A program made the position numbers and the translations under genes. The notes below the pieces were generated by a model. That model did not search any database. It saw only the letters and a list, made by a program, of their open reading frames with translations, and was not told where the DNA came from. Shown in pieces: positions 34,103 to 44,598 of a stretch of DNA of 64,000 nucleotides (the stretch's first letter is position 1; every line of letters begins with the position of its first letter). Source of the DNA: Catellatospora sp. TT07R-123 (lineage in GTDB: Bacteria > Actinomycetota > Actinomycetes > Mycobacteriales > Micromonosporaceae). The stretch lies in NCBI RefSeq assembly GCF_018327705.1, contig NZ_BNEM01000002.1:4216001-4280000 (forward strand). The letters run 5' to 3'.

Positions 34103-35404
34103 GTGACGAAGAAACGCCTCGCCCTGGACCTGTCGCCGCTGCGCGGACGCGACTACCGGCTCGTGTACACGGCGGCCGGGGTGAGCAGCTTCGGTTCGAT
34201 GATCACGTACGTCTCGGTGCCGATCCAGCTCAAGCAGATGACCGGCGACCCGCTGACCGTGGGCCTGCTGGGCGTGGTCGAGCTGGTCCCGCTGCTGTTC
34301 ATGGCGTTCGTCGGCGGCGCGCTGGCCGACTACGTGGACCGGCGCAAGCTGGTGTTCTGGGCCGAGCTGGCGCTGGCCGTGCTCACCGGCGTGCTGCTGA
34401 TCAACGCGCTGATCGGGCCCCGGGTCTGGGTGATGTTCCTCGTCGCGGGCCTGACCGCGGCCGTCGACGGCATCCACCGCCCGGCGATGGACTCGATGAT
34501 GCCGCGGCTGGCGCCACCGGAGAAGATGTCCGCGGTGGCGGCGCTGAACTCGCTGCGATACCAGGTGGCCCAGATCGGCGCGCCCACCCTGGCGGGTGTG
34601 ATGCTGGCCAACCTGAGCGTGGCGTGGGTGTTCGGGTTCGACCTGGCCACCTTCATCGTGTCGCTGATCTGCTTCTCGATGGTGCGCGCGGTGGCCCCGC
34701 CGGAGGCGGCCGACCGGCCGTCGCTGCGCACGGTCGTGGAGGGCGTCCGGTACGCCCGCAGCCGTCCCGAGCTGATCGGCACGTACCTGGTCGACATCAA
34801 CGCGATGTTCTTCGCCTTCCCGGTGGCGCTCTACCCGTGGGTGGCCGACCGGTTCGGCGGCCCGTCGGTGCTCGGCTTCTTCTACGCCGCGCTGGCGATC
34901 GGCTCGATGCTGGTCACGCTGACCTCGTCGTGGACGTCGAAGGTGCACCGGCACGGCCGGGCGGTCCTGGTCGCGGCGGGCGCCTGGGGCCTGGGCATCG
35001 TGCTGTTCGGCGTCGCCGACCAGCTGTGGCTGGCCCTGATCGGCCTGGCCGTCGCGGGCGGCGCCGACATGATCTCCGGCCTGTTCCGGGCGACGATCTG
35101 GAACCAGACGATTCCGGACTTCCTGCGCGGACGGCTGGCCGGGATCGAGATGCTGTCCTACCTGACCGGGCCGATGCTGGGCCAGACCCGGGCCGGGCTC
35201 AGCGCCCGCTACTGGGGCTATGCCGGAGCGGTGACCTGGGGCGGCGTGCTCTGCGTGGCGGGCACGGGCGTGCTGGCCGGGCTGCTGCCGAGCTTCTGGC
35301 GCTACGACGGCCGCGACGGGCTGGCCCGCAAGCAGGCCGAGGAGCAGGCGCGGGCCGAGCTCATCCGATCAGGTGAATTCGAGCCCGCACCCGTCACCGC
35401 GTGA
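34103..35404 (+). CDS. MFS exporter (EntS/MFS_3 type)
   Basis: Twelve-helix major facilitator, 433 residues. N-terminal DLSPLRGRDYRLVYTAAGVSSFGSMITY is typical of the enterobactin-exporter and macrolide-efflux-like group; motif A is ADYVDRRKLV between helices 2 and 3. The cytoplasmic C terminus is charged (RKQAEEQARAELIRSG). It has the same group membership as the MFS at 15038 but is clearly different in sequence. GTG start at 34103. It stands alone, with no regulator gene beside it. Substrate unknown. Confidence 0.85.
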   Translation: MTKKRLALDLSPLRGRDYRLVYTAAGVSSFGSMITYVSVPIQLKQMTGDPLTVGLLGVVELVPLLFMAFVGGALADYVDRRKLVFWAELALAVLTGVLLINALIGPRVWVMFLVAGLTAAVDGIHRPAMDSMMPRLAPPEKMSAVAALNSLRYQVAQIGAPTLAGVMLANLSVAWVFGFDLATFIVSLICFSMVRAVAPPEAADRPSLRTVVEGVRYARSRPELIGTYLVDINAMFFAFPVALYPWVADRFGGPSVLGFFYAALAIGSMLVTLTSSWTSKVHRHGRAVLVAAGAWGLGIVLFGVADQLWLALIGLAVAGGADMISGLFRATIWNQTIPDFLRGRLAGIEMLSYLTGPMLGQTRAGLSARYWGYAGAVTWGGVLCVAGTGVLAGLLPSFWRYDGRDGLARKQAEEQARAELIRSGEFEPAPVTA

Positions 35405-36514: not shown

Positions 36515-36544
36515 TTTACCCGCTGCGCTCAGGTGGGTTAGCGT
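36515..36544 (+). promoter_or_regulatory. Candidate promoter of the leader/MFS transcript
   Basis: A -35-like TTTACC (36515-36520) and a -10-like TAGCGT (36539-36544) are 18 nt apart, placing transcription start shortly before the leader ORF ribosome site GAGAGGAG. Predicted by eye. Confidence 0.45.
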
Positions 36545-36574
36545 CGCGGGGTACGCCCACGAGAGGAGCTCCCG

Positions 36575-36634
36575 ATGAGGTCAGCCCGCACCACCGCGTC
36601 CACCGGTGCCGTGGCGACCGCTCGGGTCTGCTGA
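36575..36634 (+). CDS. 19-codon leader peptide upstream of MFS exporter
   Basis: A short ORF reading MRSARTTASTGAVATARVC, with a strong GAGAGGAG ribosome site at the right distance before its ATG. It ends 65 nt before the exporter start. The quality of the ribosome site and the base-pairing potential of the ORF itself (see the attenuator entry) argue it is translated for regulation rather than for the peptide's own function. It lacks the HVDL motif of the known actinobacterial cysteine leader peptides. Not proven to be translated. Confidence 0.6.
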   Translation: MRSARTTASTGAVATARVC

Positions 36635-36696
36635 CCTTTCCGCCTGCTCGCCGTCTCCGGCACCGGGATCCCCCATCCCGACCCGTCTTCGGAGAC
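36578..36696 (+). promoter_or_regulatory. Putative translational attenuator controlling the MFS exporter
   Basis: Three perfect helices can form. (1) AGGTCAGC (36578-36585, leader start) with GCTGACCT (36630-36637, leader end). (2) CCGGTGCCG (36603-36611, mid-leader) with CGGCACCGG (36658-36666). (3) GTCTCCG (36653-36659) with CGGAGAC (36690-36696), enclosing GGGAT...ATCCC. Helix 3 buries the exporter's GGAG ribosome site. Helices 2 and 3 share 36658-36659 and exclude each other. A ribosome stalled early in the leader would open helix 1, favour helix 2 and free the ribosome site, as in erm-type attenuation. Confidence 0.6.
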
Positions 36697-36698
36697 GT

Positions 36699-38036
36699 AT
36701 GTCCGCGTACCGCATCTTCCTGCTGCTCAGCGGCGTCGGCTCGTTCGCCGGCCACACCGCGTACGCCCTGAACCTGGTCTACCAGGTGCAGGTCATCGGG
36801 CTCGACCCGTTGCAGCTCATCCTCGTCGGCACCCTGATGGAGGCGGTCTGCTTCGCCGCCCAGGTGCCCACGGGCGTCATCGCCGACCTGTACAGCAGGC
36901 GGCTCTCAGTGATCATCGGATACCTGCTCATGGGGGCGGGGCTGCTGCTGTGGGGCCTCGTCCCCACGTACGCCGCCGTCCTGACCGCCAACGTCGTCTG
37001 GGCCGTCGGCGCCGTCTGCGTCGACGGGGCCCTGGAGGCCTGGGCGGCCGACGAGCTCGGCCCCGACCGCGCCGGGCCCGCCTTCGCCCGGGGCGGCCAG
37101 TTCGCCCAGCTCGGCGGCGTGCTCGGCATCGGGGCGGCTGTCGCGCTCGGCTCGCTCGACCTGGCCCTGCCGATCGTCGTCGGCGCCGCCGTCACCCTGG
37201 CCCTGGGCGTCCTGCTGGCCGTGGCCATGCCGGAGCACCACTTCACCCCGCACCGCCCGGCGGCCGCGGACGGAGCGGCGGTCAGGGACGGGGCGGCGGT
37301 CAGGGACGAGGCGGCCGACAGGGACGGAGCGGCGGGCAGGGACGGGGCGGCGCGGTCGGCGCTGGCAGCCGCGGTCGGGTCGATGGGCGGGCAGGTCAGA
37401 GCCGGGCTCTCGGTCATCCGGCGCAGCCCGGCCCTGCTGAGTCTGGTCACCGCGACCGTCTTCCTCGCCATGAGCAGCGAGGGCTTCGACCGCCTGTCCC
37501 AGCCGCACTTCCTGGCCGACGTGCCGCTGCCCGCGGCCCTGTCGCCACTGGCCTGGCTCGGCCTGTTCAGCGTCGCCGCGATGCTCGGCTCGGTCGCGGT
37601 GACCGAGGTGATCCGGCGCCGGGTGGACCTCACCCGCGCCCGGCCGATCGGGCGGCTGCTGGCCTGGCTGGAGGCCGGTGCCGCAGTGGCGGTGCTCGGG
37701 TTCGCGCTGGCCGGGAGCTTCTGGGCGGCGGCTGCGGCGTACCTGGTGGCGGGGTTGCTGCGTACGGCCGTGGGACCGCTGCTGACCGCCGTGCTCGTCG
37801 CGGAGACGGAGTCGGGCACCAGGGCCACGGTCATCTCAATGCAGGCCCAGGTGGACGCGCTGGGGCAGATCGCGGGCGGACCGCCCGTCGGGGCGCTCGG
37901 GCGCGGCTCGCTGCGCGCCGGGCTCTCGGCCAGCGGCCTGCTCCTGCTCCCCGCCGCCGCCGTCTTCGCCCTGCTCACAGCCCGCCGCCCCACCCCGACC
38001 CCAGCCCCACTCCCGACCCCCGACCCGGCCGCCTGA
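36699..38036 (+). CDS. MFS exporter under leader control
   Basis: Major facilitator, 445 residues, drug-efflux-like. Helices 1-2 begin MSAYRIFLLLSGVGSFAGHTAYALNLVYQ; motif A is ADLYSRRLSVIIGY; the second half has TEVIRRRVDLTRARPIGRLL. The large central loop (about residues 180-225) contains five hexapeptide units DGAAVR, DGAAVR, DEAADR, DGAAGR, DGAARS encoded by 18-bp tandem repeats (37269-37355). ATG 36699 has GGAG 4-5 nt upstream, but that site is paired in the predicted leader hairpin. The 61-bp element B follows, preceded by five 11-bp tandem units. The leader suggests induction by a ribosome-targeting compound that the pump removes; the drug is unknown. Confidence 0.85.
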   Translation: MSAYRIFLLLSGVGSFAGHTAYALNLVYQVQVIGLDPLQLILVGTLMEAVCFAAQVPTGVIADLYSRRLSVIIGYLLMGAGLLLWGLVPTYAAVLTANVVWAVGAVCVDGALEAWAADELGPDRAGPAFARGGQFAQLGGVLGIGAAVALGSLDLALPIVVGAAVTLALGVLLAVAMPEHHFTPHRPAAADGAAVRDGAAVRDEAADRDGAAGRDGAARSALAAAVGSMGGQVRAGLSVIRRSPALLSLVTATVFLAMSSEGFDRLSQPHFLADVPLPAALSPLAWLGLFSVAAMLGSVAVTEVIRRRVDLTRARPIGRLLAWLEAGAAVAVLGFALAGSFWAAAAAYLVAGLLRTAVGPLLTAVLVAETESGTRATVISMQAQVDALGQIAGGPPVGALGRGSLRAGLSASGLLLLPAAAVFALLTARRPTPTPAPLPTPDPAA

Positions 38037-38101: not shown

Positions 38102-38162
38102 GATCGCCGTTTCGGGTCAGAAAGTAGAGCTCAGGCGCGCTTCCTGACCCGAAACGGCGATC
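38102..38162 (+). repeat. 61-bp palindromic element B, copy 2
   Basis: Near-perfect hairpin bounded by GATC: left arm GATCGCCGTTTCGGGTCAG, right arm CTGACCCGAAACGGCGATC, 23 nt between them. It is 65 nt after the MFS stop. The gap 38037-38347 (311 nt) holds this element, the 11-bp array and the tRNA terminator; no gene is seen in it. Confidence 0.85.
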
Positions 38163-38342: not shown

Positions 38343-38347
38343 ACCGA

Positions 38348-38419
38348 GCCGCCTGACGGAATCGAACCGTCGACCTTGTTATTACGAGTAACACGCTCTA
38401 CCGACTGAGCTAAGGCGGC
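38348..38419 (-). tRNA. tRNA-Thr (anticodon CGT)
   Basis: 72 nt. Acceptor arms GCCGCCT and AGGCGGC pair in full. D arm AGCTCAGTCGGTAGAGC, anticodon stem TGTTA/TAACA with loop CTCGTAA (anticodon CGT, reads ACG), T arm GACGGTTCGATTCCGTC. CCA is not encoded. A 19-bp-arm terminator follows at 38301-38342. Confidence 0.97.
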
Positions 38420-43890: not shown

Positions 43891-44598
43891 TCAGAGGTCG
43901 ACGTGTAGGGCCGCTGCTGCGGGGCCGAGGTCGAATGTCGCCTCGGTGGTCGCCCGGACCGCCGGCACCCGCGCGACCAGTTCCTCGCCCTCGGCGAGCA
44001 GCCGGTCGAACTCCGCCAGCAGCGTCGCGCCGATCTCCGCCGCCGCGGCCGCGCGCACCCGCAGCGACCTGTCCGCACCCCCGGCGTCACCCCCGGCCAT
44101 GATCCGCAGCGTCGCCGCGCCGGGCGCGATCCCGGTGACCAGGGTGACCGCCTGGGCGCTGCCCGCGACCCGGCCCAGCACCCGCGCGGCCCGCAGCCGG
44201 GCGTCCAGCAGCCAGTGGGCAAGCTCGGTGAGCCGGTCGGCGTCGGCGAGCGCCTGCTCGCTCCAGCCCCGCATGCGCGCCCGCGCCGCCCCGGCCCGTA
44301 CGGCGAAAGCCTCCGCCGCCGGGCCGCGCCAGCCGTAGTCGGCCGGCTGGGCCACCGGCAGGGCGGCGGCCACCTCGTCGGTGTGGCGGGCGGCCCGGCG
44401 CAGCACTTCTGCCTGTTCCAGCCAGGGGCCGGGGCTCCACGCCGCCAGGCCGCCGACGAGGTCGCCGGGCAGGGCGCCGGTGCGGCGCAGCAGCGGCCAG
44501 ATGTCGTGGTCGGCCGGTGCGCCGCAGCGGGCGAGCAGGTCGTCGACCTGGCCGAGCAGACCGGCGGTGTGCGTGTGCAGGCGGGTGAGGGCGTCCAT
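43891..44598 (-). CDS. Unknown protein, third gene of YbaB cassette
   Basis: 235 residues, helical, rich in alanine, no signal peptide or membrane helix. N-terminal part MDALTRLHTHTAGLLGQVDDLL is amphipathic; the central part DYGWRGPAAEAFAVRAGAARARMRGWSEQALADADRLTELAHWLL resembles WXG100/ESX helical hairpins (a W-x-G at YGWRGPAAEAF). ATG 44598 shares a base with the stop of the preceding gene (TGATG). Together with the two upstream genes it forms a tightly coupled cassette. It could be a type VII secretion substrate or chaperone-like protein; that is inference from the W-x-G pattern. Confidence 0.65.
   Translation of the reverse strand: MDALTRLHTHTAGLLGQVDDLLARCGAPADHDIWPLLRRTGALPGDLVGGLAAWSPGPWLEQAEVLRRAARHTDEVAAALPVAQPADYGWRGPAAEAFAVRAGAARARMRGWSEQALADADRLTELAHWLLDARLRAARVLGRVAGSAQAVTLVTGIAPGAATLRIMAGGDAGGADRSLRVRAAAAAEIGATLLAEFDRLLAEGEELVARVPAVRATTEATFDLGPAAAALHVDL

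Follow-up and report, generated by a model that had tools for sequence, protein, structure and literature searches.

The window, a 64,000-nt stretch of DNA from Catellatospora sp. TT07R-123, contains an MFS exporter gene preceded by a short leader open reading frame (ORF), whose stop lies 64 nt before the exporter start (Table 1). A first-pass annotation had described a 19-codon leader ORF with a strong ribosome site in front of the exporter, three perfect stems of 7 to 9 bp, and an arrangement in which one stem buries the exporter ribosome site while another, overlapping it by 2 nt, releases it. The sequence bears out each of these elements. The ORF and its ribosome site are present, the stems measure 8, 9, and 8 bp, one of them contains the exporter GGAG, and this burying stem has positions 36658-36659 in common with the stem formed by arm 2 and arm 3. 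At least three perfect stems of at least 8 bp were found in 0.15% of 2000 dinucleotide shuffles of positions 36575-36712. A stem of at least 7 bp over the ribosome site is less unusual, occurring in 9.3% of 2000 shuffles in which the last 26 nt were fixed and the 4-nt ribosome-site mask sat one base 3' of GGAG. The folding energy of positions 36555-36720 is unexceptional (z of -1.44, with 15 of 200 shuffles equally or more stable). At the Rfam gathering threshold, the whole window matched tRNA and no other family.

The gene behind the leader had been called an MFS exporter, and its protein indeed matches Pfam MFS_1 (7.4e-19). It is homologous to NCBIfam Tet(40) and TetA(P) and falls below membership in both (236.8 bits for a cut-off of 800 and 230.6 bits for a cut-off of 750, respectively); by these scores, the exporter is a distant relative of the Tet(40)/TetA(P) efflux pumps and a member of neither family. 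For the best 120 out of 1463 relatives, where a name is given it is often DHA3 family tetracycline resistance protein-like or simply MFS transporter. Its substrate is a guess, tetracycline being suggested solely through pump homology. Directly downstream of the exporter is a 19-bp perfect hairpin (38102-38162; z of -7.26), which may be a terminator or a dispersed repeat; ATCGCCGTTTCGGGTCAG, from this hairpin, is found at four places in the genome, two of which are its own arms.

Table 1. Features of the leader-exporter locus and of its surroundings in the window
Feature	Position	Strand	Basis or remark
Second MFS gene, EntS/MFS_3-like	34103-35404		two genes upstream of exporter
Putative promoter TTTACC (36515-36520), 18 nt, TAGCGT (36539-36544)	36515..36544	+	by eye; start predicted near 36551
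Leader ribosome-binding site GAGAGGAG	36561..36568	+	sequence; 7-14 nt before leader ATG
Leader ORF MRSARTTASTGAVATARVC, 19 codons, stop included	36575..36634	+	ATG 36575, TGA 36632-36634
Stem 1, 8 bp, perfect	36578-36585/36630-36637		first stem of the first-pass annotation
Arm 1, leader codons pairing locally with arm 2	36586..36598	+	folding P 0.75 in window
Arm 2 CCGGTGCCG, within leader	36603..36611	+	9-bp stem with arm 3; kept in 22 loci
Burying stem, 5' arm CGTCTCCG	36652..36659	+	8 bp with 36690-36697; invariant in three Catellatospora
Arm 3 CGGCACCGG	36658..36666	+	9-bp partner of arm 2
Small apical hairpin CGGGAT/ATCCCG, between arms 3 and 4	36664..36680	+	stem list, folds
Arm 4 CGGAGACG, includes exporter ribosome site GGAG (36691-36694)	36690..36697	+	sequence, stem
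MFS exporter, 445 aa	36699..38036	+	ATG 36699, ribosome site GGAG
tRNA-Thr (CGU) gene	38346-38419	-	
tRNA-Asp (GUC) gene	44342-44435	+	

Leader and promoter regions in Micromonosporaceae

Comparison with relatives had been proposed in the first-pass annotation as a check on the leader, and the leader is clearly conserved there. The exporter was present in 23 of 354 Micromonosporaceae genomes (E ≤ 1e-40), and 22 of the 23 loci carry a leader of 19 to 22 codons that starts 119 to 131 nt upstream of the exporter. The most distant exporter locus, L049 (45% identity), showed no leader and was left out of alignment A1, which holds the other 22 loci. Leader and pairings persist in loci whose exporter is as little as 54% identical across its first ~187 residues. 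A single genus, probably Actinoplanes/Paractinoplanes as judged from protein names, accounts for 16 of the 22 leader loci.

Among the three Catellatospora, identity is 90 to 96% for the leader with its Shine-Dalgarno sequence, 86 to 90% for the exporter's first 600 nt, and 48 to 56% for the 81 nt upstream of the leader Shine-Dalgarno sequence. The ribosome site GAGAGGAG is unchanged in the other two members of the genus; between these two, leader identity equals exporter identity, and one of them (L003) has a single in-frame, 3-nt codon insertion in its leader. This conservation suggests that the window leader is a genuine short gene. The start of the peptide is similar across separate groups of loci: codon 2 is Thr or Arg in all 22 leaders, codon 3 is Thr or Ser in 20 of 22, codon 4 is Ala (14 loci) or Pro (5 loci), and codon 5 is Arg (9 loci) or Cys (8 loci).

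Further from the window, a class-wide protein search of 394 evenly drawn genomes added two loci, L058 and L059, at which no leader was recognized. When 12 distant or truncated homologues (L005-L010, L014, L016, L017, L049, L058, and L059) were scanned for arm 2 followed 40 to 90 nt later by arm 3, 10 had no such pair; L009 and L017 gave a loose arm 2/arm 3 match 84 nt apart, with no 19- to 22-codon leader recognized. Several of these distant loci carry small ORFs of other kinds. L006, whose MFS protein is a distant relative, has a 10-codon ORF, MPTAYAVAPG, 84 nt before the position read as its MFS start, with no arm 2 or arm 3. The start of this ORF resembles that of the L035 leader, MTTAYGIA..., a likeness which suggests that the peptide start may matter by itself; in a search of two genomes for further leaders of this kind, L006's own genome alone matched. 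Five-codon ORFs, MTWRC and MTWRH, follow closely after -10-like hexamers, before other MFS genes, at L010 and L016 and are perhaps another leader family. A further five-codon ORF, MSASS, lies upstream of the MFS start at L005, and its end, CTCCTGAC, complements GTCAGGAG at the MFS ribosome site.

Had transcription begun downstream of the leader, this would have spoken against the first-pass annotation. In all three Catellatospora, promoter-like hexamers, recognized by eye, lie upstream (TTTACC 59 to 61 nt and TANNGT ~36 nt before the leader ATG, within surroundings that are only 48 to 56% identical). A sigma-70 consensus scan found no promoter. Neither the conservation in relatives nor the placement of these hexamers refutes the annotation. 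In the relatives, the hexamers lie nearer to the ATG. TTGAC is found 35 to 37 nt before it in 13 of 22 loci; of four -10 hexamers allowed there, the best, in most cases a weak match, ends 5 to 7 nt before the ATG. In L042, L043, and L045-L047, a TANNNT hexamer precedes the ATG by 7 nt. If these promoters have the geometry that PMC7157823 reports for Streptomyces, transcription in 18 relatives would start on or beside the leader ATG, and the mRNA would then be leaderless, with the leader ORF at its 5' end.

PMC7157823 also gives a WblC promoter consensus, GAAAWY placed 3 nt ahead of the -35 element. We scored the 13 of 22 loci with TTGAC at -34 to -40, and 6 of these have a GAAAWY-like box 3 nt before the -35 element with at most one mismatch (two exact and four with one mismatch); the other seven have two or three mismatches. 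The background for at most one mismatch is 0.0032 per site, giving a P of 2e-12, a value that is too small since the loci are related. By eye, none of the three Catellatospora, the window included, has a GAAAWY box 3 nt before TTTACC; a ribosome site is present instead.

Competing helices around the exporter ribosome site

The helix between arm 2 and arm 3 is conserved. In alignment A1, the leader segment CCGGTGCC (arm 2) is paired with GGCACCGG (arm 3), which follows the leader, in 175 of 175 cells, compared with 27 to 48% for slid controls. Four of the eight pairs vary, each change preserving pairing as G-U. The first-pass annotation had looked to relatives for conserved pairings and compensatory base changes: the former are plainly there, whereas no two-sided compensatory change in this helix occurs among the 22 loci. 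L048 has a leader with arm 2, whereas its arm 3 has diverged. The letters of arm 2 are unchanged although they are read in frame 1 in 15 loci, in frame 2 in 6, and in frame 0 in 1 (L004, whose leader continues to a later stop), which argues that they are kept for the RNA. In L031, L039, L040, L041, and L044, arm 2 is shifted by one base and a second shift after the arm restores the frame in time for the same stop region; the ORF, too, therefore seems to have been maintained. Exchanging arms among loci slightly favored the swapped partners (-19.56 native versus -20.47 swapped) because the arms hardly vary; for the stretch separating arms 2 and 3, a test of the same type yielded a permutation p of 0.07.

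A second helix can hold the exporter ribosome site. Arm 3 itself is able to form it in 18 relatives, where it would pair with that site (CCGGG with CCCGGAG and variants), and since arm 3 is there wholly shared, helices 2:3 and 3:4 are mutually exclusive more fully than in the window. In 21 loci (L048 was left out), native combinations of arms 3 and 4 averaged -13.66 kcal/mol against -11.76 kcal/mol for swapped ones (0 of 5000 permutations), though native-versus-swapped tests are too generous because the loci are related. The three Catellatospora rank low, their native partner being equaled or beaten by 18, 14, and 14 of 20 foreign ones, because the segment tested omits their burying arm. Their own burying stem, CGTCTCCG/CGGAGACG, is invariant and therefore gives no covariation. 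Stems 3:4 that are particular to one locus include AA:TT in L033 and, in L040, a G-C pair changed to A-T. An ungapped count over the first six pairs of 3:4, with the three Catellatospora and L048 left out, was no better than shuffles (4350 of 10000), and many of the 3:4 stems seem bulged in the folds.

A third element would compete with helix 2:3 for arm 2. The first-pass annotation had made stem 1 the first part of the switch, and as a shared part it does not hold up: 8/8, 7/8, and 6/8 of its pairs form in the three Catellatospora, and by eye it was not seen in any other row of A1. The competitor common to the relatives is suggested to be a local hairpin of leader codons ~4 to 8 with arm 2. 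There, arm 1 and arm 2 pair as GGCATCG:CGGTGCC, with 90.9% of cells paired, a value that column shuffles reach in 271 of 500 cases. One two-sided change occurs (L046), and column shuffles give as many. Locally, arm 1:arm 2 folds with P of at least 0.5 in 22 of 22 loci versus 79% of shuffled arm-1 regions. A long-range pairing of codons 4 to 8 with the ribosome site, seen in folds of some relatives, was set aside as the same letters serve 3:4.

We modeled a stalled state by covering the first 27 nt, the assumed footprint of a ribosome at about codon 5, and compared it with RNA from which everything through 12 nt past the leader stop had been removed and which thus lacks arm 2 by construction. 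In the modeled stall, 17 of 22 loci have helix 2:3 predicted with P of at least 0.5. All 22 show fewer 3:4 pairs when stalled than in the shortened RNA, a difference that is partly built in through the removal of arm 2. The free RNA already forms 2:3 with P of at least 0.5 in 16 of 22 loci (mean, 0.72), so the off state there must come from ribosome movement or folding kinetics. The window has a value of 0.00 when free and reaches 0.28 in the modeled stall, a partial shift. The unpairedness of the ribosome site, taken one base 5' of GGAG in the three Catellatospora, was higher in the stalled than in the leader-removed state in only 10 of 22 loci, which gives no support for exposure.

A covariance model, R1, was built from the leader loci themselves, which therefore match by construction; in total, it matched 22 of 22 exporter genomes. 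It gave one site per genome in 3 of 3 same-genus exporter genomes and none in 8 same-genus genomes without the exporter. In the 19 further exporter genomes it found every exporter leader, along with two extra weak matches (E of 0.06 to 0.09). Fifteen other genomes of the family, with no exporter match at E ≤ 1e-40, yielded two matches (E of 0.08 to 0.1) with no obvious leader there.

Probable attenuation of the exporter and alternative readings

We consider it likely that the leader is a ribosome-stalling, erm-like translational attenuator of the Tet-family MFS exporter. This was also the reading of the first-pass annotation, which is supported in part; the leader, arms, and competing helices are conserved, whereas the folding test for ribosome-site exposure does not add to it. 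Without a stall, ribosomes would pass the leader fast, arm 2 would be held by arm 1 or covered by the ribosome, and the burying stem (3:4 in the relatives and, in the window, the stem overlapping arm 3 by 2 nt) would cover the exporter ribosome site. Under inducing conditions, a ribosome that lingers within the first ~5 codons of the leader would cover arm 1 and leave arm 2 free; arm 2 would then capture arm 3, and arm 4 would be released for translation of the exporter. We infer the stall, its cause in a translation inhibitor that the pump expels, and control at the level of translation rather than transcription, the last because the ribosome site is buried and there is no T-tailed terminator.

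According to PMC8987054, linezolid and chloramphenicol stall ribosomes best when the penultimate residue is Ala and less well when it is Ser or Thr. This preference would fit the Thr/Ser-Ala at codons 3 and 4, and a ribosome halted at codon 5 would stop just short of covering arm 2. An extension of the reading, in which a leaderless sensor ORF in Micromonosporaceae is joined to a WblC/WhiB7-type promoter, so that the drug would be sensed twice, in transcription through WblC and in translation through a stall at codons 4 and 5 (Thr/Ser-Ala-Arg/Cys), is offered tentatively, and we regard it as somewhat doubtful.

The identical arms could also serve transcription attenuation, with 3:4 as a terminator that has no T tail, 2:3 as the antiterminator, and a stalled ribosome letting transcription continue. 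Such ribosome-mediated control is described for actinobacterial and other ABCF genes in PMC12421871, where transcriptional reporters in Streptomyces were antibiotic induced for are5sc and constitutive for tiaA. Here, however, no T-run follows the hairpin, and the exporter ribosome site lies in arm 4 both in the window and among the relatives, and we judge this explanation unlikely. Nor does the absence of any drug-specific stall account well for the locus. Re-initiation or coupling, which has been proposed for tet(L)-type leaders, would need only a ribosome that re-initiates or unfolds the hairpin, and a translated-looking ORF does end upstream of the exporter, but the 64-nt gap is long for re-initiation and the conserved arm 2:arm 3 helix would be left unexplained. 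Even with the tet(L) leader tied to inducibility (PMC9387203), we find such coupling quite improbable as the sole mechanism here. Several leaders contain Cys or Arg codons, as might be expected if the leader sensed an amino acid or charged tRNA, or if a protein or ligand bound the RNA, with antibiotics uninvolved. No residue run is common to all 22 leaders, Cys being present in some and absent in others, and the WblC-like boxes in some relatives' promoters are a mark of antibiotic response, all of which makes non-drug sensing very improbable.

Firmicute resistance genes provide the best-known cases of erm-like four-arm translational attenuation. In ermC, a leader ORF precedes arms that pair either as 1:2 and 3:4 or as 2:3, with the ribosome site of the resistance gene in arm 4. 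The locus described here has the plan of such erm-type attenuators (ermC leader), namely, a short leader ORF, a 3:4 pairing with 2:3 as the alternative, an arm 4 that contains the ribosome site, and a possible 1:2 hairpin. Unlike them, it controls an efflux pump rather than a methyltransferase, and the leader ORF in 18 relatives appears to begin at the mRNA 5' end. The window exporter is also homologous to TetA(P) of the tet(P) operon of Clostridium perfringens. That operon is reported to be attenuated transcriptionally, at an intrinsic terminator, whereas none was seen at the window leader. The tet(K) leader peptide likewise precedes a tetracycline efflux MFS gene, and the mechanism proposed for the tet(L) and tet(K) leaders, both from Firmicute plasmid systems unlike the present one, is re-initiation. 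The tet(L) leader ORF, too, precedes such a gene and is linked to inducible expression (PMC9387203). Among actinobacteria, the uORF-attenuated ABCF genes are5sc and tiaA and the wblC uORF of Streptomyces provide examples of antibiotic-responsive uORF control (PMC12421871 and PMC7157823). In contrast to the window leader, the are5sc and tiaA uORFs are very short (MLV and MVGDDDISG), have predicted terminator and antiterminator forms, and belong to other genes with other peptides (PMC12421871). The first-pass annotation had known of no earlier account of the leader; in agreement, the titles and abstract starts among the literature matches listed, which leave most subscription papers outside, contain no description of the leader or of an attenuator of the exporter.

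It thus appears that a chromosomal erm-like attenuator guards a Tet-family pump in several genera of one soil actinomycete family. If WblC control and stall sensing do act together, the pump would answer phenicol- or oxazolidinone-like stallers or tetracyclines. The attenuator would be a ready reporter for which antibiotics these bacteria perceive, and it may allow one to test whether a ribosome that starts on a leaderless ORF can be a drug sensor.
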